IMG/VR virus record: IMGVR_UViG_3300027365_000010
Coordinates: 1 to 64,000 of that record
Origin: a virus
Length of the DNA stretch: 64,000 nt
Strand: one strand, 5' to 3'
Positions 308 through 59,633 of the stretch are shown here, in pieces (the stretch's first letter is position 1; each line of letters begins with the position of its first letter). The notes below the pieces were generated by a model, which was not told the DNA's origin, ran no database searches, and saw only the letters and a list, made by a program, of their open reading frames with translations. Both the position numbers and the translations under genes were made by a program.

Positions 308-778
308 ATGACTGTTATTAGTGATACAATGCTACACCAATATGGCGTTGCTACCGATACACCTTATTCAGAAAGTGTAATTCATCGTCTCAAATCAGAA
401 TTGGATAAACAAATACCTGAGATTATAAGACAGGTGTTCGATAATACTGTTACAATGATGGAGTTATCGGATTATATCAAATTGATTTCAATACGATACG
501 ATATAAACTATACCAGCAACGTTGTTGATGACACAAACATCTTCACAAAAGTGTGGAAACGTGTATGTTCTATCACAACTAAGAAACCGCTAGATGTACT
601 TATAACGTCCAGCGTTTTTGAAATATCTTATTCTATAGATTTTGAGTTTAAAAACGAATATCTGTTGAAGTTGAAAGATTATGATAAATATACAGAGTTT
701 ACGGAAAACATTGATTCATATATTTTTATAGAATTAAACACTAAACTCGATAATCTTTTTTATGACTCATCTATCTAA
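308..778 (+). CDS. Hypothetical protein
   Basis: A 156-residue soluble protein of unknown function. I chose ATG 308 rather than the in-frame GTG at 299, because AGGTGA, which overlaps the upstream stop, sits five bases before the ATG. The close spacing suggests it is co-transcribed with the upstream partial gene. The protein is rich in Asp, Lys, Ile and Tyr and has no signal peptide, membrane segment or catalytic motif that I can see. Its last 12 bases overlap the end of the convergent gene on the other strand. Confidence 0.6.
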   Translation: MTVISDTMLHQYGVATDTPYSESVIHRLKSELDKQIPEIIRQVFDNTVTMMELSDYIKLISIRYDINYTSNVVDDTNIFTKVWKRVCSITTKKPLDVLITSSVFEISYSIDFEFKNEYLLKLKDYDKYTEFTENIDSYIFIELNTKLDNLFYDSSI

Positions 779-1555
779 AATAATATCCAATAAACTCACA
801 CTCACTGCTAGATATTCGTCATCAAACCACAGTTCATTATTTCCAGCCTGTAGGTCTGGGAGATTTGATATATCGAATACCTTAAATAAATCTGGGTCGA
901 TCATTTCATATAATCTTTTAGGTCCATCATTCAAAATTTCTTCTACAATTTTTTTGCTGGCAAATAATTCTAGCTCATACCTCAACTTAGACTGTGAGTC
1001 TTGATATATTTCTGAATCATTCTTTTTCTCTTTTTCAAAAACATCTTGTAGATGACGCAATTCTTCCAAAGTGTCAATATGATCGACGCCTAATTTGAGA
1101 GCCCAACGTTCAATCATATTGCCTATCGAAAAGAAACCAACCCGAGTACCTTTAAATTCTTCCGGTACTACATTCCAAATATCATTCGCCGGTACCATTG
1201 CAATCTTTGTACCGTTTTTAGGAAATAGTACCGCTAAGTTATCATCACTAGCTGAGTATACCATAGCAACATTACGACTAGTTGTTGCAATGACTGAACG
1301 TTTTGGAAGAGATTGAAATTTTGGATGTTCGTTCATAATAGCTGTGTATACATTGTTCGTATTCACGCTCTTACGTCCTCTCATTGGCTCTAGATGCATG
1401 AACGTGATCGTCATGTCTCCGAACCCACGATAAATGAGATTACCTTTAAGTGCTTGTCTATAAGCGTCTGAATACTCAGACTCCAATAACTTCCTGTACT
1501 CATCTAACTGAAGAATTGTCGATGATGATTCTGTGATAATTTCATTTACTTTCAT
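767..1555 (-). CDS. Putative internal head protein, ADP-ribosyltransferase-like
   Basis: 262 residues. The N-terminus MKVNEIITESS fits a capsid-targeting peptide with a T4-type prohead protease site (I-T-E, then Ser). The body has an ordered series of motifs, IYRGFGD, then RGRKSVNT, then RSVIATTSRNVAMVY, then LFPKNGTKIAM. Together these resemble the Arg / STS-like / Tyr core of phage mono-ADP-ribosyltransferase-like proteins. The C-terminal half is charged and helical, and I could not assign a catalytic Glu. The start overlaps the signals of the upstream amidoligase-like gene (AAGGATTAA, the stop inside the Shine-Dalgarno region), so the two are translationally coupled. T4 Alt is a precedent for a packaged ADP-ribosyltransferase; enzymatic activity here is inferred. 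Confidence 0.5.
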   Translation of the reverse strand: MKVNEIITESSSTILQLDEYRKLLESEYSDAYRQALKGNLIYRGFGDMTITFMHLEPMRGRKSVNTNNVYTAIMNEHPKFQSLPKRSVIATTSRNVAMVYSASDDNLAVLFPKNGTKIAMVPANDIWNVVPEEFKGTRVGFFSIGNMIERWALKLGVDHIDTLEELRHLQDVFEKEKKNDSEIYQDSQSKLRYELELFASKKIVEEILNDGPKRLYEMIDPDLFKVFDISNLPDLQAGNNELWFDDEYLAVSVSLLDIILDR

Positions 1556-1560
1556 AGGTA

Positions 1561-2928
1561 TTAATCCTTATCAATAAACATCGTTTTGTAGGCTTCCCAA
1601 TGGTCACTATTTTTAATCATTGCCTCGCCTTTAGGAAATCGATCATTAATCACATATAAAGCATATTTTAAGGCAGTATCACTTTCAGTTGCTATTGCAT
1701 CTTCGCCTAATGGAAAAGCCCCATGTAAAACATGTCTTGCATACATATAGCTACGGTTTGGATGTTCTGAAATGGCCTCTTCACCCTCTGGAAACGGTTC
1801 ACCAATTGTTCTAGCGTACTGTAAAGCGACTGCACCATCCTTAGCCATTTCAGCCTCACCCTTTTCGAACGGTTCTCTTCGAAACACCGCGTATATTAAA
1901 GATGATATTGGATCAGTGGCTATCATATCCTCACCTTTTGGAAAGTCTGCATTAAGTATGTTTTTTGCATAAGCAACTGATATTCTTGGATTTTGTATTA
2001 TAACATTCTCAAGTTTATCTAATAGATCCTTTGGCAACTTACCAGTTTTAAAAAAGTGTTTTGCGTTTTTTTCGATAAAACGATAAGCATCTCTTGAATT
2101 ACCAGACTTAATGATCTCATAGGCTTCTTTTCGCACACCACTTAGTTTTATATCCTGATTTAAGTATGAGGATAGTTCTTTATAATACACCTTGTCATAT
2201 AGATCAGTATAAGCAACCTCCATAAGAAGGAGTGATCTTAACAGTTGTATCTTAATATCATCATACATTTCATGATAGTCTTTACCGCCAATGAATCTGA
2301 GTTCAATTCTACCGTCACTAGTGAAATAATCTTTGACTGCCGCTGTGATATACTTTGAACCTTCAAGTTCAGTCATTATACGCCACTCAATATTTTCTAC
2401 ATCCTTTTTTGATCTCAACCGTTGGCTCGGTAGTTCAGAGAGCATTATTTCTATATATCGATTATAGTTTTTTACATGATCTCTTTCTGGGAATACTTTA
2501 TGGATATAGTCTGAATCCATCAATAGCAAGAACTTAACATGATTGAAATCATCAAGTTCATATTTATTAGTAGATATGGATATATGCATCCCGGCCATTT
2601 CAGGGACTGTAATATCTTCCTGTTCTATGAACGAAAACATAGATTTAATATGAGTCAACGCCTCACGCAAAAACATCTTCCCGGTAATGATTTCTATCAT
2701 GTCGTCATGCTCGGTAGTTACAGAATCAAAAGCAATTCCGTATTTGTTGAGCATTGTTATTACATCATCCATCGTCACATCTGGTTCAAATTTCATTTCA
2801 TATTCAACACCAACGTTGAAATCATTAGAACGTGATAGAATGTCATTAATTTCTTTTTCGCCGAAAGTGACGCCTTCGGATATTTGTCTTCTATATGATT
2901 TTTCAAGTATTAGAGGTAGGTTATGCAT
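1561..2928 (-). CDS. Putative internal head protein: amidoligase-like domain plus FPxGE repeats
   Basis: 455 residues, paralogous to the two large proteins at 56-60 kb. After a leader ending in QISEG comes the family signature GVTFGEKE, then VGVEYEM near residue 40, D-x-M-I-E-I-I-T, AGMHISIST near 112-120 and GRIELRFIGG. The order ExE, polar E-rich strand, GxHxxxS, then a Glu-Leu-Arg strand is that of amidoligase / glutamate-cysteine-ligase-like enzymes of the glutamine-synthetase fold; a ligase activity is inferred. Residues about 300-450 hold five imperfect repeats of roughly 25-33 residues with the core F-P-x-G-E and ending Y-A. SD AGGATTG lies six bases before the ATG, and a late-promoter motif is 26 bases upstream. 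Confidence 0.6.
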   Translation of the reverse strand: MHNLPLILEKSYRRQISEGVTFGEKEINDILSRSNDFNVGVEYEMKFEPDVTMDDVITMLNKYGIAFDSVTTEHDDMIEIITGKMFLREALTHIKSMFSFIEQEDITVPEMAGMHISISTNKYELDDFNHVKFLLLMDSDYIHKVFPERDHVKNYNRYIEIMLSELPSQRLRSKKDVENIEWRIMTELEGSKYITAAVKDYFTSDGRIELRFIGGKDYHEMYDDIKIQLLRSLLLMEVAYTDLYDKVYYKELSSYLNQDIKLSGVRKEAYEIIKSGNSRDAYRFIEKNAKHFFKTGKLPKDLLDKLENVIIQNPRISVAYAKNILNADFPKGEDMIATDPISSLIYAVFRREPFEKGEAEMAKDGAVALQYARTIGEPFPEGEEAISEHPNRSYMYARHVLHGAFPLGEDAIATESDTALKYALYVINDRFPKGEAMIKNSDHWEAYKTMFIDKD

Positions 2929-12954: not shown

Positions 12955-13078
12955 AAAAAGATCTTCGTTTTACAGGGAATACGGGGGATATAAACTGTTC
13001 GCTGTTTATATCCCATTTATAACTGACTAATGTATTGACGATATTGTTTAATTGTTCAGTAAGAAGAAACCTGCTCAT
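12953..13078 (-). CDS. 41-codon upstream part of a frameshifted gene
   Basis: Starts with ATG at 13078, whose ATGA overlaps the stop of the HAD gene, a classical coupling signal. It reads MSRFLLTEQLNN... and ends ...KRRSF at a TAA. A T5 run followed by the TAA (TCT TTT TAA) would let a +1 slip continue straight into the 137-codon frame downstream. It also contains a hairpin-forming sequence. Either a truncating indel, a programmed +1 shift or a base error could explain this. Confidence 0.5.
   Translation of the reverse strand: MSRFLLTEQLNNIVNTLVSYKWDINSEQFISPVFPVKRRSF
12985..13014. repeat. 11-bp perfect inverted repeat (hairpin)
   Basis: GGGATATAAAC and GTTTATATCCC are separated by eight bases. 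The repeat lies inside the small upstream ORF, about 30 bases before the frameshift point, and has no T-run on either strand. It is therefore not an obvious terminator and could be an RNA structural element. Confidence 0.55.
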
Positions 13079-13554
13079 TCACAACTCCATAAATGATGAA
13101 TTTTTTCAATATCATTATCGCATAAACCAGTACTTCCATCAACATGTATTAACCTTGAATGATCCTCATACATTTGATCGCCTGAGTCGTCAATAATGAT
13201 ATAATCATCACTATTGATATTATATAGCTCACTATGCTCTATTACTTTTCGGCCTCTCATAAGGCCACCTCCTGTGCTTAGAGCATCACTATGATATGGA
13301 ACCTTTAAAAACCTACAAATATTCTCTGAATCACCATTGAAGGTAGCCCATGATGACACAATGACTACTTGTGCATTGTACTCACTGACAATACTCTGAA
13401 GACGCTTTAGCTTATCACTAACCACATAGTCACCGCGAGTAAAAAAATGTATATCTTCTGGTATCAATCCCGTTGTGCGTAAACTATTATGTAAACGTTC
13501 ATGGTCACTGTAGCAGTTAAGTACACCATCAATATCTAAATAAATTACCTTCAT
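13075..13554 (-). CDS. HAD-family phosphatase (Swiss-army-knife RNA-repair type HAD)
   Basis: 159 residues. Motif I is DIDGVLN near residues 7-13 (nucleophile Asp and acid/base Asp), motif II is VIVSSW, and motif IV is YIIIDDSGDQ. These are the conserved HAD catalytic elements, and the compact length with GVLN and SSW fits the small HAD domains associated with RNA repair. The substrate could be a nucleotide or RNA terminal phosphate. It overlaps both neighbours by four bases. Confidence 0.7.
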   Translation of the reverse strand: MKVIYLDIDGVLNCYSDHERLHNSLRTTGLIPEDIHFFTRGDYVVSDKLKRLQSIVSEYNAQVVIVSSWATFNGDSENICRFLKVPYHSDALSTGGGLMRGRKVIEHSELYNINSDDYIIIDDSGDQMYEDHSRLIHVDGSTGLCDNDIEKIHHLWSCE

Positions 13555-15323: not shown

Positions 15324-15860
15324 TTAATATTTTACGTGCACGTGGAAAACGACATTTACTTCAGTACTAAATGTTTTATATTCCAATATTTCAGAAACAA
15401 TATTCCAATCACCACCGCCCAATCCGCAACCAATTTTAGGGATTATGACATTCAATGTGTTATTAAGTGAGTTGTTTGTGTCATAACACTTTTTGCGAAT
15501 GGCTTCGTTAATCGCAGACTCTAATGCTTCGATAAATGCTCCATAGTTAAAATATCGTCTCTCAGTACCATAATACAATTGTGTATAAAGATTGAATGCC
15601 ATTTTGTGGGGAGGTTTGCCTTCGTCTTCATAACTAACCATACTGAACTTACCAAGTTTTTTATTATGGTCACCACCAACTTCTAGATGATATTCAAGGT
15701 CTGCATGATAAAGTTCTGGAATGCGACTTTTTACATCACGAGCAATTCCACTGTTCATAGTCACCTGACAGTTTGCTCCATGCGCAAATATATGGTATTT
15801 GTTATTGGTCAAAAAGTGATGTACGGCATCACTTTTTTCATAATATAGTATTTTATTCAT
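15324..15860 (-). CDS. Macro-domain protein (ADP-ribose binding or hydrolase)
   Basis: 178 residues. It shows the macro-domain order: AHGANCQVTMNSGIARDVKSR (the N-rich ADP-ribose loop, then G-I-A), KLGKFSMV, FNLYTQ, YGAFIEALESA and IPKIGCGLGGGDW near the C-terminus (the second ADP-ribose-binding loop). Members bind ADP-ribose and often remove it or hydrolyse ADP-ribose-1''-phosphate. This would counter host ADP-ribosylation or recycle products of NAD or tRNA-splicing chemistry. It overlaps its upstream neighbour by eight bases. Confidence 0.8.
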   Translation of the reverse strand: MNKILYYEKSDAVHHFLTNNKYHIFAHGANCQVTMNSGIARDVKSRIPELYHADLEYHLEVGGDHNKKLGKFSMVSYEDEGKPPHKMAFNLYTQLYYGTERRYFNYGAFIEALESAINEAIRKKCYDTNNSLNNTLNVIIPKIGCGLGGGDWNIVSEILEYKTFSTEVNVVFHVHVKY

Positions 15861-21272: not shown

Positions 21273-22190
21273 ATGAAACTGGTTAATCTTTTTGAGCGAA
21301 CAATCAAAGTACCTCAAGATCTCAAAGAAGACATACTAAGAATGGTAGTCTATGCTATCTATCACTACCATACACGGGGTGCTACTGAAAATGATACTAA
21401 GGAATTTGAAGAGGTTGTCGAAGACATTACCGGGTATACCGTAGATGCCCTTGAAATGGAATTCACGGGGCGTTTGAAGCGTAGTGTCAGTGGGAACCGT
21501 GATTATCTCGGTCTAAGCCTATTTCATCCAGAGGATGTCCCTTACTATCATAGCTCAAGGCTCGTTAGAAGTAATATGGACCAAATGGCACAAGATGGTG
21601 TACTACCCATTGATGTGTTAGTGATGATTCGTGAAAATGATTCATCAAGGTACAGTATTGTTAAAGGAACACCCAAGATATTAATAAATGCACATAGCCT
21701 TTCAGATGCGTTTTTAGACTCATGGTTCAATGACACGCGTGATAAAAAAGCAATGACTGAATTCAAAAAACTAAGAAGTGTTGTTGACCATGAACTGCAA
21801 CACTTAATACAAGACATTGGCTTGCATAAAGATCAATCTGCAATTAAGCCAAACTATGGTCATGGTGGTAGATCGGAAGAAGATGTGCATGATGACTATT
21901 ATTCGTCAGAGGCAGAGATTCGACCTCAACTGGCTAACCTAGAACAGGAATTCCGCAACTTTACTGAAGGTGATGAGTGGTGGAATATGTTTGACTCTGA
22001 ACAGAAAAAAGAATTCTTCAGAATGTTTGTAGGTTTGAGTTCCAGAGGATTTGACTTGGAGGTTGGAACCCAAACCCTAAAGGTTAAAATAGATACGCCA
22101 CGTTTTTTTGCTGCATTAAAAAAGGATGCACCTAAAAAATACATTAAAATTGTTAAAGATTTTTATGGGATGGTAGATGACCTACTTTAA
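21273..22190 (+). CDS. Putative internal head protein: HExxH metallopeptidase-like
   Basis: 305 residues. The N-terminus MKLVNLFERTIKVP contains an L-F-E prohead-protease-type site. The zinc-binding HELQH is at residues 173-177, and a downstream acidic SSEAEIRPQ segment could supply a third ligand. The tag and the region around the motif are shared with the gene at 22.7 kb. Zinc peptidase activity is inferred from the motif and its setting in a helix. It has CGGAG eight bases before the ATG and its own late promoter. Confidence 0.6.
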   Translation: MKLVNLFERTIKVPQDLKEDILRMVVYAIYHYHTRGATENDTKEFEEVVEDITGYTVDALEMEFTGRLKRSVSGNRDYLGLSLFHPEDVPYYHSSRLVRSNMDQMAQDGVLPIDVLVMIRENDSSRYSIVKGTPKILINAHSLSDAFLDSWFNDTRDKKAMTEFKKLRSVVDHELQHLIQDIGLHKDQSAIKPNYGHGGRSEEDVHDDYYSSEAEIRPQLANLEQEFRNFTEGDEWWNMFDSEQKKEFFRMFVGLSSRGFDLEVGTQTLKVKIDTPRFFAALKKDAPKKYIKIVKDFYGMVDDLL

Positions 22191-22216
22191 TACTTGGGAC
22201 TACATGTCCCAAGTAT
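22190..22216. terminator. Convergent hairpin terminator
   Basis: An 11-bp perfect stem (ATACTTGGGAC / GTCCCAAGTAT) with a five-base loop lies between two convergent genes. Flanking T-runs are short, so its efficiency is uncertain. Confidence 0.65.
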
Positions 22217-22604
22217 ATACACTATCTACACAATCAACTTCGATCATGTCTTCTGTCACATTATCAGGATTGTAAAAATATACCCACGCTTCGACACCAA
22301 CATCTAGCATAACTTCCTTACGCTCATAATGATCAGGGTAGCCTTCGAGCATATCAATCAACTCTAGTGTTTTATCATCTACGGCATAAAGTTCGCCAGC
22401 AACAATCTTACCGTTTGGATCAAAGGCGATTGCTGGGAAAGAGCCCATGTCATACATTTTAAAACGATCAATGGTATTGACTTTACCTAGATAGTCGTAA
22501 CCTTTGTTTTTACTATGAGTATCATAGTCGTAGGAAATGATTTCATGATTATGGAATCCTTGCTTCAATGTACCATATACCATCACAAAATTTTCGTTAC
22601 TCAT
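22200..22604 (-). CDS. Gamma-glutamylcyclotransferase-like protein
   Basis: 134 residues. VYGTLKQG near residue 9 is the family's signature glycine loop (YGTLxxG), and LEGYPDHYERKEV holds the usual catalytic-Glu region. Family members release 5-oxoproline from gamma-glutamyl amines, peptides or glutathione. The substrate here is unknown; a link to glutathione or to gamma-glutamyl products of the amidoligase-like proteins is conceivable but speculative. Confidence 0.75.
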   Translation of the reverse strand: MSNENFVMVYGTLKQGFHNHEIISYDYDTHSKNKGYDYLGKVNTIDRFKMYDMGSFPAIAFDPNGKIVAGELYAVDDKTLELIDMLEGYPDHYERKEVMLDVGVEAWVYFYNPDNVTEDMIEVDCVDSVYTWDM

Positions 22605-22724: not shown

Positions 22725-23561
22725 ATGCGCCTACACCAACTATTTGAATCAATGATTCGTCTTCCTGAAAACCTAACAGGTGATGTCATGGAATTCGTGT
22801 ATGCTTACGTAATTGATTTCTTAAATACTAAGAATAATGATTTAGACAGCGGCATTGAGCTTCTACAGTCACTCAATATCAATCCAAAGTATCCAGAGCT
22901 GAATAAAAGATTGCGCTTTACACATACATCTAATGTCATTATGAATGCTAAAATTGGTTTGGGCTCCTATAAATTCAAGTATAATATTGAAGAGGCCGAT
23001 AAATCATTAACTATTCGTCTCGTAGATTCATCTGAGCATTACTATGGTGGATACGACCCTGACACCAATGTTTTAACATTAAATATGCATAACCTTAAAC
23101 TCATGCTTGCACATGAACAACCTAAAAAGTCGTTTATAGATTACACGCTACATGAATTCGAAAACACTATAGAACATGAGCTGATGCATTTTGTACAGTA
23201 TAAATCATTCGGGAAAGTAGATCCTCGTCAGATTCAAAATTATCAAGCCAAAGATAATTCCCCAGAAGAATACGTGAAATATGCCACATCAGCGGTTGAG
23301 TTGTTACCATCATTAAAGTCTGAATTCAATACTTTCAAAAACAAAGTAAAGTTCCTATCCAAAACAATACCTATAACAGATAATGATCGTATGCAACTGA
23401 TGCGTTATTTTATGGGTGATGAAAATGCGAAAGTTGAAAAATATTCAGAATTCTTGGATGATTTCAGATCAATACTATTCCAGCGCCTGAAAGACGAAAA
23501 TGAAGAGTTATGGAAGAAGTCGGTGAAAGTGATGATACAACAGTACCGGGAGACATTTTAA
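22725..23561 (+). CDS. Putative internal head protein: HExxH metallopeptidase-like
   Basis: 278 residues. The tag MRLHQLFESMIRLPENL parallels MKLVNLFERTIKVPQDL of the 21 kb gene. HELMH is at residues 151-155, followed by FVQY and, further on, SAVELLPSL, which aligns with SEAEIRPQL of the paralogue. This indicates duplication and divergence of a whole protein. Predicted zinc hydrolase; its target is unknown. Confidence 0.6.
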   Translation: MRLHQLFESMIRLPENLTGDVMEFVYAYVIDFLNTKNNDLDSGIELLQSLNINPKYPELNKRLRFTHTSNVIMNAKIGLGSYKFKYNIEEADKSLTIRLVDSSEHYYGGYDPDTNVLTLNMHNLKLMLAHEQPKKSFIDYTLHEFENTIEHELMHFVQYKSFGKVDPRQIQNYQAKDNSPEEYVKYATSAVELLPSLKSEFNTFKNKVKFLSKTIPITDNDRMQLMRYFMGDENAKVEKYSEFLDDFRSILFQRLKDENEELWKKSVKVMIQQYRETF

Positions 23562-27979: not shown

Positions 27980-27993
27980 TATTCACTCTCTAT
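27969..27993. terminator. Convergent terminator
   Basis: ATAGAGAGTGA / TCACTCTCTAT, 11-bp stem with a three-base loop, followed by ATTTTTT, ends the CheW-like operon and the opposing gene. Confidence 0.8.
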
Positions 27994-28738
27994 TAATTTT
28001 TTCTAGATACGTTTTATATAATTGATATAAACGCTTCTTGAAAGCTTTATCATACTTTCCTTTCAAATCTGATAACATCTCCCCGCCATGCGTTTCCACT
28101 CTTATTAAAGATATAAAGTTATCAAACGAAGGATTTTTCGAAAATATGGACATTACACTTGGATCTTCAAAGACATGTTCAATCTCATGCATTATCTGGA
28201 TATAAAAGGCATTGTATTCATGTGGTGTGTCTATATACTTACCAGATTGTCTCAGCTTACGCTTTGTATCGATATACATTTCTTCATTATCACTATCAAC
28301 TGAATCCATAAAATGCACATATTCATGGACGAACACCTTTTTATACATATTGGTGAACATTTTATAAAAATCATTTATACTTATTAGATCTTCATCGTTA
28401 TTTTCATTGATGTATAAATGGATCTCATACTTAAATGTTGTCGTGTAACCATCGTTGATGCTGGTTGTGATCAATTTCCCTATTGTGTTTTTGGTAAGCT
28501 GATTTCGTGGAAGGACTCGGACACCGAGTGGATTATCTTTATAGGTAAGCTTGAATGTATACTTATACAGCTTTCTCAAAATATCCAAGTATGATTTCTC
28601 AAAATAATCAAATTCATCTAGACCAAGTAATTCTATATGGCCTTTGAATTCAATCATAAAATTATCAAATGCTTCACGGGCATTTGATAATTTCTTTTGA
28701 TCAGAGTCTATATCTTCAAAAAGTTGTTGTAATCTCAT
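27983..28738 (-). CDS. Putative internal head protein: HExxH metallopeptidase-like
   Basis: 251 residues. Tag MRLQQLFEDI. HEYVH lies at residues 138-142 in a helix (KVFVHEYVHFMDSV). A later HEYNAFYIQIMHEIEH segment offers further Glu/His ligands. Outside the tag and motif it differs from the 21 and 22.7 kb proteins, so the tag is conserved better than the enzyme. Zinc peptidase activity inferred. Confidence 0.6.
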   Translation of the reverse strand: MRLQQLFEDIDSDQKKLSNAREAFDNFMIEFKGHIELLGLDEFDYFEKSYLDILRKLYKYTFKLTYKDNPLGVRVLPRNQLTKNTIGKLITTSINDGYTTTFKYEIHLYINENNDEDLISINDFYKMFTNMYKKVFVHEYVHFMDSVDSDNEEMYIDTKRKLRQSGKYIDTPHEYNAFYIQIMHEIEHVFEDPSVMSIFSKNPSFDNFISLIRVETHGGEMLSDLKGKYDKAFKKRLYQLYKTYLEKINRE

Positions 28739-42556: not shown

Positions 42557-42982
42557 ATGATCAAGTGTGTAGGTTGTCTTATATATGATAAAGATAAAGA
42601 TATGTTTCTTTTACAACAACGTTCCAAGAATTCATCCCATCCTTTAAAATGGGGATTTTGGGGCGGGAAACTTGAGAAAGGTGAGAACTTTGCTCAAGGG
42701 CTGAAACGTGAAATTAAGGAAGAGTTAGGAACCTACCCGGAGTTCGACAAACTATTCCCACTTGATGTTTTTCTTAGCGATGATACAAAATTCATATATT
42801 ACTCATTCGTCATGGTTGTAGACAAATTTGATGATTTCTGTATATCAAGTAAAGAAACAAACGACTTCATATGGTTGCCGTTAAACTGTATTGGTCGTAT
42901 AGATATACATGAAGGGTTACGAAAAACTCTTAAAAATAAATACCATATTCTAGAAGATATAATTGGGAGATATAAACAATAA
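42557..42982 (+). CDS. Nudix hydrolase
   Basis: 141 residues. GGKLEKGENFAQGLKREIKEELG satisfies the Nudix box GX5EX7REUXEEXGU near residues 37-59. The domain is otherwise minimal. It probably removes a diphosphate-linked nucleotide or sugar; specificity is unknown. It lies between the neck gene and a candidate internal protein. Confidence 0.85.
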   Translation: MIKCVGCLIYDKDKDMFLLQQRSKNSSHPLKWGFWGGKLEKGENFAQGLKREIKEELGTYPEFDKLFPLDVFLSDDTKFIYYSFVMVVDKFDDFCISSKETNDFIWLPLNCIGRIDIHEGLRKTLKNKYHILEDIIGRYKQ

Positions 42983-43773
42983 TGAAAATAAAAGACGTTC
43001 TAAATGAAGCGGTGGAAGTACATGGTAATGAACTAGTAGCTTACTGTATTGTAGTTGCGGAAGAATTTAAGAAACTACCATACCTTGACGAAGATGCATT
43101 ACCATTATGGCAAGCCGTGGCTGAACATAATAATAAAATGTTATCAAAAATTCTAAAAAAGGTTAGGATCGAATATACCAGTCGTGATCCATATAAAACA
43201 CAGAAAGATATGATGTACGATATCATCGTGAATAATCGTATGAAGATCTTTAAAACACCGTCGGACGAATCACATCCCGGTCTATCTGCTGTTGAAAATG
43301 ACATTCTCCGAACTGTGCATGATTTTATAGGTCATCATCTTCCTAACGAAAAAGAGTTTGCTAAATTCTTAGCAAAAAATAACTTTGAAAAGAATCCCAA
43401 CTATAAAACTTATCGCTTTAGTAAAAATAGCTTTACAGTACGAGGCGAAATGAATACCTATCTGACGCATACTAAATTACTTCCTAAAAAGCTAAAGCCC
43501 GTGTTATTCACTGAAATAGTAGGGCAAATATGTACATACTTCGTGACCAATGATTTCACTGATAACAAAGTAGCTGTAATGAAAGGTATCGACTTTGATA
43601 AAGTAGGTATGTTTACTGACAAGAATCTTACCATAAGGAAAGAGCGTTATCGAACTATGCTTGATGATGATTCTATAGAAAAGTTCAAGACTGAATTGGG
43701 CGATTATGATAAATCAACGATAAGATGGAATCTTTTAAGTCGTGGAGAAGGACAGGTAAGGAAGAGAGATTGA
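42982..43773 (+). CDS. Putative internal head protein with an HDxxGHH motif
   Basis: 263 residues. Tag MKIKDVLNEAVEV (L-N-E, then Ala). A conserved-looking core reads NDILRTVHDFIGHHLPNEKEF, then SFTVRGEMNTYLTHTKLLP and TEIVGQI. The H-D-x-x-G-H-H and G-E-x-x-x-x-x-x-H arrangement could bind a metal. The family is not named, but the setting (late region, capsid tag) resembles the other packaged proteins. It begins at the last base of the Nudix gene. Confidence 0.5.
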   Translation: MKIKDVLNEAVEVHGNELVAYCIVVAEEFKKLPYLDEDALPLWQAVAEHNNKMLSKILKKVRIEYTSRDPYKTQKDMMYDIIVNNRMKIFKTPSDESHPGLSAVENDILRTVHDFIGHHLPNEKEFAKFLAKNNFEKNPNYKTYRFSKNSFTVRGEMNTYLTHTKLLPKKLKPVLFTEIVGQICTYFVTNDFTDNKVAVMKGIDFDKVGMFTDKNLTIRKERYRTMLDDDSIEKFKTELGDYDKSTIRWNLLSRGEGQVRKRD

Positions 43774-44471: not shown

Positions 44472-45878
44472 TTATTTCATTTTGAATAGATGCCAGCCGT
44501 CGATATTGGGACGCCTTGCCTTGAGGTTCGCATAAATCATAGCGATATTTTTTAGAACATCGACAGTGATCTTTCGGGGCATTGGCACATAGAACAATTG
44601 ATTAAAATCATAATCCTTTTCGATCAGCTCATCGATCAATTGTACTGCTGGTGTAGGATTCGAGGCTAAGAACTCAACGAATTGATGAATGTAGATTTTA
44701 TCAAAGTTTCCAAAATAACTAAGCAATGGTATATTGAGATTATATTGTCTACCAAAGCGCTGAATGATTGGGTAGAACTCATCAACTACACTAACAACAT
44801 CATCATAGTGTTGGTCGAACAGTTTATACTCTCTTCGTTCACTATCCAGAAATATATCCCTATTGGTTGGTTTCCAGTCGTCATTGGGTACAACATGTGC
44901 CTTATACACATCGGCAATTTCATCTGATATCACATCAATATCCTGATCAACGTGAATGCGGTGAACTACAACGCCATATGGTGTATCAGCCTCTACAATA
45001 TAATAAACGTTATCGTGTGTTTCACTTTCTTCTTCTTTTCCGAACGCAACCGTTATTACTATTTCAATACCATCAACTGTCCAAAAATAATAATCAAGGA
45101 AAATACTATAACTTGGATCAGAATTCAAATGGGTACCCAGACCTTGAGCGATTTCGCTTGCAATTCCTCTCATATATTTCGCGTCTCTAAAATATAAATG
45201 AGAGTTATCACTAGGAGCATCTATTTTATCCTTTGGGGTTTGTTCCATTAGCTCATAACGATCATTGACTCTGAACGTGTCATTTATTATAGCAACGGTA
45301 CTGAAGTGTTTTGATATAAGGTTATTACCAGAATTCTCATTCTGTACTATTACCGATATACCCATTTTCTTCATTCTCTTCTGTATAGTAGATGTACTTA
45401 CTCGCGACAATTTCATCTCATTGTCCTTAATCTCTACGTCATTAAATAGTAGCTTGGAAAACATGTAACTTTCTATACTTGGATTGGAAGTTTTATAATT
45501 GTCGCTAAACTTACCTATCATGAAATCAAAGTCTTCCTTACCCAATCCTATTACTTTACTCAACTCTTTAACATGCGAAAGCTTTGTCTTCGAAAGATAA
45601 AATATAGACCCATTGATCTGAATAACATTAAGAAATTTATACTCAGCGTAGTCAGTATATGATGCTTGATCATTTAACACTGATTTAATTGGGAATGCTA
45701 CTGGAAGGTTGTTATTGGGATCAGTCTCTAAGTCACCGACCGATGAAATCTCTTCATTGGAAAATACCACAAAAAGGTTTCTTGAATAAATAAGATTATA
45801 GTCAGAAATAAAAGATTCAAATGTATCTGGGAATATATCAGACACCTTTGTTTCCACTAATAATTTTGATAGACGCAT
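44472..45878 (-). CDS. Putative internal head protein, unrecognised fold
   Basis: 468 residues. Tag MRLSKLLVETKV (L-V-E, then Thr). The body has several beta strands (LNVIQINGSIFYL, SIFLDYYFWTVDG, VYYIVEADTPYG) and a long helical end. No known catalytic motif was seen. The arrangement (late promoter, isolated, large, capsid-tag) matches the other candidate packaged proteins. Confidence 0.45.
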   Translation of the reverse strand: MRLSKLLVETKVSDIFPDTFESFISDYNLIYSRNLFVVFSNEEISSVGDLETDPNNNLPVAFPIKSVLNDQASYTDYAEYKFLNVIQINGSIFYLSKTKLSHVKELSKVIGLGKEDFDFMIGKFSDNYKTSNPSIESYMFSKLLFNDVEIKDNEMKLSRVSTSTIQKRMKKMGISVIVQNENSGNNLISKHFSTVAIINDTFRVNDRYELMEQTPKDKIDAPSDNSHLYFRDAKYMRGIASEIAQGLGTHLNSDPSYSIFLDYYFWTVDGIEIVITVAFGKEEESETHDNVYYIVEADTPYGVVVHRIHVDQDIDVISDEIADVYKAHVVPNDDWKPTNRDIFLDSERREYKLFDQHYDDVVSVVDEFYPIIQRFGRQYNLNIPLLSYFGNFDKIYIHQFVEFLASNPTPAVQLIDELIEKDYDFNQLFYVPMPRKITVDVLKNIAMIYANLKARRPNIDGWHLFKMK

Positions 45879-45906: not shown

Positions 45907-45915
45907 GGTATGTAT

Positions 45916-46596
45916 ATGTTTGAAGACGATGAACCATTGATGGAAGAAAAAATACTGACAAATTGCGGTCCATATTTGAACTTACTCAAAGAATTATCAA
46001 GAAATGGTATTAAGAAGCCGTTGTTACGTGGCTCGGCAACACCATATGACAGTCTTACTAAATTAGCAGTCAAAGAACGTCCCAGTCCAATAAATACAGA
46101 ACTCATTGATCACGAGATTTCAAATCAATGGTTCAAAGACAATTTCGGTATAGAGGCACGTAGCAAAACTGTATTCGTAACTACTAATCGTGGTCTAGCC
46201 AGTAGATACGGAGAGATACACTACATATTCCCTATTGGAAAGTTCAGCATTATCAATAGTGAAAAGTATGCTGATTTATTTTTAAAATTTGGCTGGATGT
46301 CTAAAGTGAAAATCTTCAGAAGTATTTACGGTACACCAGAAGAATATCCTAACATTGAGACCTATGAAGAAGCCAAAAAGTTTCTTGATTCTCTTAAAGA
46401 AAAAGACCCTGAGAAATACGAAAAAATTATACATACAATACTTTCTAATGGGGAGTATAAGAAAAACAATTTTAAAGAAGCGTTTCGTAACGGAAACGAA
46501 ATCATGCTCAAATGTAAATCATTCTATATTATAAAAGAAGATGAGCGCATTAAAGACTTTATAAATGACTTTATTTGGGATGATATATTTATTTAA
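45916..46596 (+). CDS. ADP-ribosyltransferase-like phage protein
   Basis: 226 residues, from ATG 45916 (an ATG at 45910 is equally possible). PLLRGSATPYDSL, then a P-S-P-I-N-T segment, then TVFVTTNRGLASRYGEIHYIFPIGKFSII follow the same order as the 0.8-1.6 kb protein (RGFGD, SVNTNN, VIATTSRNVAMVY, LFPKNG). This is the arrangement of a phage protein group with a degenerate ART core. PLMEEK near the start could be an internal protease site (L-M-E), weakly supporting packaging. Activity inferred. Confidence 0.5.
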   Translation: MFEDDEPLMEEKILTNCGPYLNLLKELSRNGIKKPLLRGSATPYDSLTKLAVKERPSPINTELIDHEISNQWFKDNFGIEARSKTVFVTTNRGLASRYGEIHYIFPIGKFSIINSEKYADLFLKFGWMSKVKIFRSIYGTPEEYPNIETYEEAKKFLDSLKEKDPEKYEKIIHTILSNGEYKKNNFKEAFRNGNEIMLKCKSFYIIKEDERIKDFINDFIWDDIFI

Positions 46597-52192: not shown

Positions 52193-52735
52193 TTAAATAA
52201 CAATAGTAGTACATGCACTTCCGACAGTAGGACAGAATGTTGAAACGGTTTCCATCGCTTTATGAATCAATGGTATTACCTCGTCGGTTGTCATATTTCG
52301 TATATCTCGATCTTTTAAGTAAGTGTGCATGGCACCTAGTGCATACTCATAACCACTACCAACCGCGTTAATCCCATTAACAGAACGAAGAATGGAAAAG
52401 TCTGATTGCAACTCCCATAGCTGACCTTGTACGCCAATCAGGCAATTACCGCCACCATTCAACTTACCTTTTTCCAGCTCATTTTGGCAGTGTGGTACAA
52501 ACTCTTTGACCAACCATGGATAAATTTGAGATTGTGTTGTTGGGACAAAATCTTTGGTCATAGAATGCTCAATAATTTGCCCAAAGCGATAACTTGAGGT
52601 ATATCCAAATCCCATGTCTCCATTTTTAAATACTTTTGGTTGTGTATGAACAATCTTATTATTTCGTCCAGAACCTTGGATGTCACCACCAATAACAACT
52701 TTATCTCCCACTTCAACACCAATAATACACGTCAT
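52193..52735 (-). CDS. HslV-like Ntn hydrolase
   Basis: 180 residues. MTCIIGVEVGDKVVIGGDIQG is the HslV start (Thr2 nucleophile position, VVIGGD), a Lys at KVF the likely catalytic base partner, and NAVGSGYEYALGAM the G-S-G turn. E. coli HslV is about 176 residues, so the length matches. It shares the order of these motifs with the 17 kb protein but differs in sequence. No HslU partner is adjacent; the AAA+ protein at 29-31 kb is a possible distant one. Confidence 0.75.
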   Translation of the reverse strand: MTCIIGVEVGDKVVIGGDIQGSGRNNKIVHTQPKVFKNGDMGFGYTSSYRFGQIIEHSMTKDFVPTTQSQIYPWLVKEFVPHCQNELEKGKLNGGGNCLIGVQGQLWELQSDFSILRSVNGINAVGSGYEYALGAMHTYLKDRDIRNMTTDEVIPLIHKAMETVSTFCPTVGSACTTIVI

Positions 52736-56154: not shown

Positions 56155-57912
56155 CTACCAGCTTTTTAATACTCTATGAAGGCTTTGGATAACATCTATG
56201 TATTTTTTCTTGAAATACCGCTCAAACAACTCCATAGAATCTTGATTAGGATTGCCTTCATCAAACTCTTCAAAGAATTCGCTCAAATCAATTCTTTTAG
56301 AAATTGCCTTAAGTGAACTATATAGATATGACATAGTAAAACCATACTTTTCTTTCACTACGCTATTGGCCATCTTGGACAACTTCTTGTAGTACTCTTT
56401 GTTGTACTCATCAGTATATGCAAAGTTTAGTAAATATAATGCCCTGAATAGATGCGTACCTATTTCACCATATCGCTCATGGTAATTCTCACCACCAAAG
56501 AATCGCAGTTCAATACGCCCACCAAGTATATCATAATCTTTGAAGTTAATAGTTTGAAATTTTTCTTTATTATTCGTATTCGAGATATACTGTTCTAAGT
56601 TCTTAACGACATCCACTAAGCTATCATTTTCTAAAACACTAGTTAGAATGTACTTATCGATTACCTTTTCTATTTCATATATTACAATTTCTTGCAAATC
56701 CAGTACATGACTTCTCTCAGGAAAAAATTCACTTATATAATCTATGTCCATAATAGTAATAAACTTCGCTATGTTAAAGTCATCATGATCATGAATACGT
56801 GACGATATAGATATATGCATACCAGCATAGCTTTCAACTCGGTGATTCTGCAAATACTTAAACATGGTCTCGATATTAAGCAATGCCTCATCAACATCCA
56901 TTTTCTCTGTAATCACTTCTATCATTTCGTCGTGTTCATCAACAATCTTATCGATATGAGGAATCTGATCTCTAATTTCATCTTCGTTCACTTCATAGTT
57001 CTGTATAATATCTTCTAAATTTTCTCTCGCAGTGTCCACGAGATGCCTAGTTATACCCAAAACATCATGATAATTCTCCACATACGATATATAATCAGGA
57101 AGCGTAAAATCACCATAACTGAAACCATCTGGCTCTACGGTATAAGAAAGATGTTCTATATCAAGTTCAGTTGTGATCAATGAAGAATTAGACAACATCT
57201 CAATTGCATCTGATACATCCACAATTTCATCTTTATCAATGGAATCTAAATATTCATCATTAGTTATTTCCGTAATGTTGAAAAATCGTTCATCAAATAA
57301 GGTATTGGACTGATAAAAGTTATAGAAATCTTTCATCATCTCACTATTGGCTCCGAAAAGATCACCATCAAAATATACATCTAATACAGTACATATATCA
57401 TACATCTCTCTAAGATTAATTTCATGGTTGTATACAATATCTTTTATGCTGTAAAGCTCTACTTCCCCTTCATCATTTACTGAGTCTTTCAAAACATCCC
57501 TATAAAGAATAACATAAGATGCTTTCTTATCATCGGGGAATAAATCTTGCGTCTCAGTATCAGAAGATTGAAACTCTCTTATTTTTTTAACTAATCGTGT
57601 TGTTAATGTAAGAAAGTCCATTACCTTTGACGGTACTGAACTATCCATGTCATGGACACTTTCAACATAATCAGCAATATATTCGGAATATTCAGGTTCT
57701 AGAAACATATCGTGGTTATCATAGAGTTTGTCTAAATCATGAAGTATTTCATCATCAGCCTGTGATATATCAATGACATCATCGAAGTTAACCTCTTCGC
57801 CTTCATAATTAAACTCATATTCGATACCAACAAAATATTCATCAGCATGATCTAAAATAAACTGTTTTTCTTTATTACCAAACTTAATCCCCTCAAATAA
57901 CTCTTTACTCAT
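56155..57912 (-). CDS. Putative internal head protein, amidoligase-like (paralogue 2)
   Basis: 585 residues. Tag MSKELFEGIKFGNKEK, then VGIEYEF near residue 29. A large acidic, helical insertion (about 60-330) precedes YAGMHISISSRI and GRIELRFFGGENYHERYGEIGTHLFRALYLLNFAYTDEYN. The signature blocks match the 1.6 kb and 57.9 kb proteins. It follows the latter with a four-base overlap and depends on its promoter. Ligase function inferred. Confidence 0.6.
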   Translation of the reverse strand: MSKELFEGIKFGNKEKQFILDHADEYFVGIEYEFNYEGEEVNFDDVIDISQADDEILHDLDKLYDNHDMFLEPEYSEYIADYVESVHDMDSSVPSKVMDFLTLTTRLVKKIREFQSSDTETQDLFPDDKKASYVILYRDVLKDSVNDEGEVELYSIKDIVYNHEINLREMYDICTVLDVYFDGDLFGANSEMMKDFYNFYQSNTLFDERFFNITEITNDEYLDSIDKDEIVDVSDAIEMLSNSSLITTELDIEHLSYTVEPDGFSYGDFTLPDYISYVENYHDVLGITRHLVDTARENLEDIIQNYEVNEDEIRDQIPHIDKIVDEHDEMIEVITEKMDVDEALLNIETMFKYLQNHRVESYAGMHISISSRIHDHDDFNIAKFITIMDIDYISEFFPERSHVLDLQEIVIYEIEKVIDKYILTSVLENDSLVDVVKNLEQYISNTNNKEKFQTINFKDYDILGGRIELRFFGGENYHERYGEIGTHLFRALYLLNFAYTDEYNKEYYKKLSKMANSVVKEKYGFTMSYLYSSLKAISKRIDLSEFFEEFDEGNPNQDSMELFERYFKKKYIDVIQSLHRVLKSW

Positions 57913-59633
57913 TCCAAACCCCTTAAAAAATCCAAATCTAGCATCCAGTCTTCACCAAACGCTTTTGACATATATCTATCGAACTGTTTAATGTCATCTA
58001 TCTGTTCTTGACCTATGGTCTTTTTAAACCAGTCATACATTTTTGCTATATCTTTAGGAAATATCTTGTTGGCTCGATTTATTACCGATACAATGTTACT
58101 TAATGAAGTATTATATTTTTCCTTAGCATTTTTATTAATTATCTTAACCATCTTCTTATAAAAAACATTATTATATGTGTCTGTATAAGCGAAGTTCAAA
58201 AGATATAGCGCCCTTAATAAGTGATGTTTGATCTCATCCTCGTATAAATGGTAATCTTCCCCACCAAAGAACCGTAGTTCTATACGCCCATCTAATACTT
58301 TATAATCACCAAATTTTATAGATTGTTCCTTGTGGTAAGAAATCATCACTTCAATTCTGTGTGTAAGTGTTTTAACAATTTCTGATGCTGACAATACTTT
58401 ATTATTACTATTGTATATATCCTCGATAACATCAGGCAACATATCCTTTGCTTCATAATCAATTATTTGTTCTAGATTTTCAACATATTGTCTCTCAGGG
58501 AACATATCTAATACATGATCTAGATCTAAAAGAGCCACGAATTTCATCAGGTTGAAGTCGTCAAGATTGTATTTATTAGTTGATATTGATATATGCATTC
58601 CTGAATAATTACTTGTTTCCGAATTACTGATCATAAAATTGAACATCTGGTCTATGTTCTTAAATGCCTCAATTACGTTCATCTTGGTGGTTATAACTTC
58701 AGCCTGTTCAGCATTGTCCCTTTTAATACCCGTGATTTTAGATATATCAACACCGTGTTCTTTTAAATCATCTTCATCAGGTAAGGAACCTTCTGAATGC
58801 ATCGGGATTTCAGACGAAATAGATTCAAATTGCTCTGAAAATTCTCTGAAAATTTCATTATCAATAGTAGGTATAGTAGCATGATCCTCACGATAAGTTG
58901 TATACTGATCAAAACTTATGCTTTGTTCATCAAACTCTGCAAACTCATAAGGTATATCTTCTTTACTCGGTATATCTAGTAATTCCGTATTAGCCATCGA
59001 ATCTATCAATCCATTTAAGTGCTTCTCATCACCATCGATTATCTTACTAATAATTACTAAATAATCACTGTATTGTGCGAAATTCTCGTCATTAAACATT
59101 TCACCCTCATAATACAGGTCGATAAAACGCATTATATCTTCTATATAACTTCGATTCCAAGAAGAGATACGCTTAACATTTGTCTTATCAATGTCACCGT
59201 TGTTTAAGATCTTCATGAAGGCATCATAAAACTGTCGTATGGTTTTCTCATCATCAACCATATTCATTTGAGTACCAAACTCGTGTTCATCATCTTCCTG
59301 TTCGTCAGACTTTACATTTTTCTTCACAAGTCGGTCAAAGTCATTAATATGATCAAACAGCTTGATTAGGATCATTCCATCTTTAACCATCTGTTGTATT
59401 TTACTACCTACTAGAACATCTTCAAATATTCGTTCAACCTCTACCGTCAGGTCATATGCATTTATCATGGATAAAAAATCATCCATGTCATTATCTAAGA
59501 AATCTCCGATCTTAAGATTTTCTTTATAATGCATTTCATATTCTATACCAACATTAAAATCTTTGGCATTCTTAAGTATTAGAGCTTTTTCTTTCTCTCC
59601 AAATTTAACGCCTTCAAAAATCTTTTTAGTCAT
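57909..59633 (-). CDS. Putative internal head protein, amidoligase-like (paralogue 3)
   Basis: 574 residues from the ATG at 59633, with AAGGAT eight bases upstream; the longer in-frame start lacks a ribosome site. Tag MTKKIFEGVKFGEKEK, VGIEYEMHY, a large acidic insertion, then SGMHISISTNKYNLDDFN and GRIELRFFGGEDYHLYEDEIKHHLLRALYLLNFAYTDTYN. It shows clear colinear similarity with its neighbour. Late promoter in front. Confidence 0.65.
   Translation of the reverse strand: MTKKIFEGVKFGEKEKALILKNAKDFNVGIEYEMHYKENLKIGDFLDNDMDDFLSMINAYDLTVEVERIFEDVLVGSKIQQMVKDGMILIKLFDHINDFDRLVKKNVKSDEQEDDEHEFGTQMNMVDDEKTIRQFYDAFMKILNNGDIDKTNVKRISSWNRSYIEDIMRFIDLYYEGEMFNDENFAQYSDYLVIISKIIDGDEKHLNGLIDSMANTELLDIPSKEDIPYEFAEFDEQSISFDQYTTYREDHATIPTIDNEIFREFSEQFESISSEIPMHSEGSLPDEDDLKEHGVDISKITGIKRDNAEQAEVITTKMNVIEAFKNIDQMFNFMISNSETSNYSGMHISISTNKYNLDDFNLMKFVALLDLDHVLDMFPERQYVENLEQIIDYEAKDMLPDVIEDIYNSNNKVLSASEIVKTLTHRIEVMISYHKEQSIKFGDYKVLDGRIELRFFGGEDYHLYEDEIKHHLLRALYLLNFAYTDTYNNVFYKKMVKIINKNAKEKYNTSLSNIVSVINRANKIFPKDIAKMYDWFKKTIGQEQIDDIKQFDRYMSKAFGEDWMLDLDFLRGLE

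Follow-up and report, generated by a model that had tools for sequence, protein, structure and literature searches.

The window analysed here, a 64,000-nucleotide stretch of a 92,453-b virus record, comes from a large tailed phage with at least four copies of a glutamine-synthetase-like enzyme. Three of these are encoded in the window as proteins of 455, 585 and 574 residues, here w455, w585 and w574 (Table 1). Their translations mark them as true paralogues: in within-contig comparison w455 matches w585 and w574 at E = 3e-40 and 2e-36, with 41-44% identity over ~200 aa, a likeness that on sequence exceeds chance by far. The motifs which the sequence-only reading ascribed to all three are present in 3/3, namely GVTFGEKE, GIKFGNKE and GVKFGEKE, respectively, followed by VGVEYE or VGIEYE, GMHISIS, and GRIELRFIGG or GRIELRFFGG. 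That reading had counted three members and given 1561-2928 as the place of the whole family; the three are indeed paralogues, but the interval spans w455 alone and more copies exist. A fourth, a 606-aa open frame, lies immediately beyond the left edge of the window, where it was read on a near-identical contig (L007). A 218-kb syntenic relative (G001) has five members, arranged in two tandem pairs plus a gene that stands alone, and Salicola phage SCTP-2 (440 kb) has two. The w585 and w574 genes overlap by 4 nt, and this type of tandem pair is also kept in G001 and in SCTP-2 (genes 125/124). The length of w574 is counted from ATG and would be 593 aa if an upstream GTG were used. Units of the form YA..VL...FPxGExxI are repeated at the C-terminus of w455 and its G001 orthologue and are absent from w585 and w574; in the AlphaFold2 model of w455 they are helical, with low confidence beyond residue 400.

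Table 1. Features of the window discussed in the text (↓, putative cleavage site)
Feature	Position	Strand	Basis or remark
w455, 455-aa amidoligase paralogue	1561..2928	-	Leader, GS-fold core, C-terminal helical repeats
w455 leader, residues 1-18	2875..2928	-	Ends ISE↓G (also ILE9↓K); [L/I]-x-E rule and AF2 pLDDT
w455 predicted GS-fold core, residues 23-258	2155..2862	-	E42xE44, E79, H115, K192, E209, R211; VIA-align and invariant columns
w455 C-terminal repeats, residues ~312-455	1564..1995	-	Translation
w585, 585-aa paralogue	56155..57912	-	Leader MSKELFE↓G; ~250-aa insertion between ExE strand and third Glu
w574, 574-aa paralogue	57909..59633	-	Leader MTKKIFE↓G; insertion as in w585
262-aa leader-bearing gene, possible ADP-ribosyltransferase	767..1555	-	Leader MKVNEIITE↓S; 5 nt downstream of w455
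228-aa relative of putative ART array	45910..46596	+	Matches to Atu_ph07 array and SCTP-2 gene 445
ORFs with M[KR][LI]xx[LV][LF]xE leader, candidate head cargo	21273-22190, 22725-23561, 27983-28738, 42982-43773, 44472-45878		Unrelated-looking
Gamma-glutamyl cyclotransferase (GGACT)	22200-22604		PF06094, E 1.3e-23; no leader
NUDIX gene	42557-42982		
Weak Macro match	15324-15860		
HAD_SAK_2 gene	13075-13554		
Weak proteasome-like (Ntn hydrolase) match	52193-52735		

The 262-aa product encoded next to w455 is related to a leader-bearing tandem array of Agrobacterium phage Atu_ph07, and its R43-G44, R86 and E241 are invariant in five relatives. Because Foldseek gave no significant match for it, and VIA-align reached a Z of only about 3 to the ART-fold proteins OspC3, CopC and PARP13, we leave its identity as an ADP-ribosyltransferase (ART) as a possibility; it and the 228-aa product may both be such enzymes. 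Packaged phage ARTs are an established theme (PMC9503650). The NUDIX gene and the Macro match would fit an NAD/ADP-ribose network, and the GGACT is a possible reverse partner for an amidoligase. The window also contains the HAD_SAK_2 gene and the proteasome-like match listed in Table 1.

Predicted fold, family and active site

The sequence-only reading took these proteins for amidoligases of the glutamine synthetase (GS) fold, and structure prediction bears this out, with glutamine synthetases, YbdK, GCS and phage amidoligases as the best matches of the w455 model (AlphaFold2, mean pLDDT 81.8). All 50 of the VIA-align matches listed are glutamine synthetases, and 7tf9 aligns within residues 23-258 with a Z of 12.6 and an rmsd of 4.0 over 194 residues. 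Foldseek against the PDB returned GS at E 8.5e-5 and YbdK at 7.1e-4, with GCS too among the top matches, and the BFVD yielded phage amidoligases at 1e-9 to 1e-8, including members from phage tf and Salinivibrio phage CW02. On these models the family is predicted to have the GS fold, and the assignment of the window paralogues to the GS-fold amidoligases is supported.

Sequence profiles lead to the same family by a longer route. All three window paralogues match PHROG 33777, which has no functional label, at 1e-38 to 1e-40. A direct Pfam search with them gave no significant match, so that their membership of PF12224 (Amidoligase_2) goes via intermediates. PF12224 is matched by 23 of the 39 aligned relatives (best 1.6e-8); the w455 orthologue in G001, 65% identical, scores 22.7 bits against a curated cut-off of 22, and gp196 of Atu_ph07 (AUZ94978.1) is likewise above that cut-off (E 5e-7). 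A protein of an uncultured jumbo phage bridges the family with VGWEIEF, ELITGP, CGIHYNVS and GYLEFRYLGG, and by searching IMG/VR with the core profile we confirmed 205 stretches. Against PDB sequences a profile search produced chance matches alone, hhalign runs on GlnA and YbdK as single sequences found no similarity, and one core-motif pattern run across genome contigs found no cellular relative. Pentapeptide repeats are matched in 11 of the 39 aligned relatives. The large outer clade of the family (L020-L089) has members of about 430-480 aa, mostly without leader, and in at least one of them Q replaces the motif His (CAFQFSLSF).

The catalytic residues are conserved in the alignments. E42, E44, E79, E209 and R211 (w455 numbering) are invariant across 39 relatives and H115 is invariant in nine aligned relatives, so the ExE and the His singled out by the sequence-only reading both hold. 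K192 is also invariant and may replace a substrate-binding Arg of GS. E. coli GlnA has the same order of residues, in GPEPEF (E129/E131), E220, GSGMHCHMS (H269) and RRIEVRF (E357/R359), and two pairs nearly match, GMHISIS with GMHCHMS and RIELRF with RIEVRF. The residues were mapped onto GlnA from the order of the motifs and without superposing coordinates, and since hhalign against the single sequences found nothing, the mapping rests on this order and on the structural matches. The second His of the GMHxH motif is Ser in the window family.

N-terminal leaders and the case for packaging

Ahead of the domain, 13/13 close relatives examined carry [L/I]-x-E, its middle residue varying, at the end of leaders that are 7-19 residues long; the 13 are from the window phage, G001, SCTP-2, L019 and Atu_ph07. 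In the w455 model pLDDT is below 50 for exactly residues 1-18, up to ISE18. T4 gp21 cleaves behind L/I-X-E and thereby shortens Alt by 7 residues (PMC9026906), so that by sequence the leader is of a conserved cleavage type. The motif is short and frequent by chance, and the E-G at the putative cleavage site could belong to the domain and not to a cleavage signal. In the outer clade [L/I]-x-E occurs in 6/37 distinct leaders (7/38 with L019, which was left out as one of the 13). Genome-wide, [LI]xE plus a small residue near N-termini was counted 17 times versus 6.5+/-2.3 and 32 times versus 19+/-3.8, in sequence terms a real, modest enrichment. Five unrelated-looking ORFs of the window have leaders of the form M[KR][LI]xx[LV][LF]xE, as do their G001 counterparts, and are candidates for more head cargo (Table 1).

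SCTP-2 encodes a gp21 homologue. With Pfam gp21 and SCTP-2 queries, no prohead protease gene was found in the fragments from the window phage and its relatives. The same fragments yielded no major capsid gene either; there the Pfam gp23 search is uninformative because it matched none of the controls. In G001, SCTP-2 queries found tail genes while capsid, portal and prohead protease genes were not found, so this 218-kb sequence is probably a piece of a larger genome.

In Atu_ph07, the PF12224 protein gp196 is linked to head and virion genes: it lies two genes from portal gp198, within the virion cluster CDS 170-215. This position was obtained by CDS counting, verified against gp70, gp125, gp132 and gp198 of the Atu_ph07 paper (PMC6102473). 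The leader of gp196 is MRWQDISSKKLTE, of the MRW...LTE type. Over the 162 kb scanned of that phage, the pattern M[RK]W...[LI]xE occurs in nine tandem-array genes at 39-50 kb, one ORF at 36.6 kb and gp196, and in no other. The array, gp53-gp63 (about 39-53 kb; L109 9485-23138), consists of leader-bearing putative ART genes and lies inside virion cluster CDS 31-76, for which mass spectrometry identified 29 proteins, a figure for the whole cluster and not specific to gp53-gp63 (PMC6102473). The first gene of the array codes for 778 aa, which include a kinase domain of the zeta-toxin type as well (PF06414, 1.5e-14).

The sequence-only reading had called the family packaged, to which the conserved T4-type leader and the Atu_ph07 gene setting now lend weight; packaging and injection themselves are what we infer from such features, and the family is probably packaged in the phage head. 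Since a GS-like bond-forming enzyme appears here with a head-loading-type tag on each copy, the phage may inject it into its host.

Proposed role and comparison with known systems

We propose, with a probability of roughly 0.6, that these proteins are ATP-dependent amide ligases which are made late, packaged in the head, matured by the prohead protease and ejected along with the DNA, and which most plausibly act on host protein. Each copy would be synthesised with an N-terminal propeptide of 7-19 residues directing it to the prohead core, and the prohead protease would cut this off behind [L/I]-x-E, just as happens to T4 Alt and the internal proteins. Once matured, the ligase would be kept in the head and leave together with the DNA. 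It would then convert a carboxylate to an acyl phosphate and couple it to the amine of a host molecule, for which a protein is our best guess. The wider idea, that jumbo phages inject diversified packaged peptide or amine ligases that covalently modify host proteins on entry, much as T4 Alt does by ADP-ribosylation, and so form an entry-effector class new to phages, we hold tentatively and would bet slightly against.

An identical leader would also bring into the prohead core a ligase that acts on the phage's own head, cross-linking or tagging capsid or core proteins in assembly, and gp196 of Atu_ph07 does lie near the portal. We consider such an enzyme unlikely, as several divergent copies per genome resemble diversified effectors more than one assembly enzyme, and loss of the leader with retention of the enzyme is the pattern of T4 Alt and the internal proteins (PMC9026906). 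Phage amidoligases have been placed by the literature in cassettes of the phiEco32/LUZ24 type (PMC5498523), and a cell-wall or small-molecule (gamma-glutamyl) amidoligase of this kind, working in the host cytoplasm during infection, would suit the presence of a GGACT gene in the window. However, that gene is distant from the amidoligase copies and without leader, the window genes scanned showed no recognisable glutamine amidotransferase or ATP-grasp gene next to the copies, and the leader pattern is present in all close relatives; to us this explanation is about as improbable as a head-acting enzyme.

A slightly smaller chance again goes to proteins that retain the GS fold yet cleave amide bonds, or that are catalytically dead and merely bind. 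Among GS-fold enzymes, Dop is a hydrolase and has a ligase, PafA, as its homologue (PMC7947786), and the serine in place of the second His of GMHxH would be in keeping with such a change, but the core metal-ligand positions that can be mapped are invariant even in distant relatives. The packaged amide ligase remains our preferred reading, and it can be tested quickly, since Atu_ph07, an isolated phage whose virion proteome has been published (PMC6102473), has a relative of the family.

With PF12224 proteins such as AUZ94978.1 the window family has in common the fold, the motif order, the ExE and the E-x-R. It differs in its [L/I]-x-E leader (also found in Atu_ph07 gp196), in its 4-5 copies per genome, in the big insertion of w585 and w574 and in the C-terminal repeats of w455. 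Its likeness to GS and YbdK lies in the fold and the order of catalytic residues, while sequence similarity was not found by PDB profile search or hhalign. PHROG 33777 is without functional label; the amidoligase label is supplied here, and this family would thereby gain a function.

The phage amidoligases known so far are interpreted as enzymes of the cell wall or of metabolism; among packaged effectors, ADP-ribosyltransferases and inhibitors are the best known. In the literature searched, mostly titles and the openings of abstracts, we saw no report of a packaged, leader-bearing amidoligase family. Phage amidoligases are already known from cell-wall cassettes (PMC5498523) and as auxiliary genes (PMC10580990). 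The peptidoglycan-modification cassettes of phiEco32, LUZ24 and PSA-HP1 also have phage amidoligases, but these adjoin glutamine amidotransferase and ATP-grasp genes (PMC5498523), neither of which was identified beside the window copies among the genes scanned; the window family differs too in its head-targeting-type leaders.

A close parallel for the leaders is T4, whose Alt and IPI-III have a short N-terminal propeptide ending in L/I-X-E and where there are likewise multiple cargo proteins per phage. The T4 cargo differs in its chemistry: Alt is an ADP-ribosyltransferase and the internal proteins are small (IPI inhibits a restriction enzyme), and none is an amidoligase. If our proposal is true, a multi-copy, leader-bearing amidoligase clade would add the forming of bonds to the chemistry that large phages inject.
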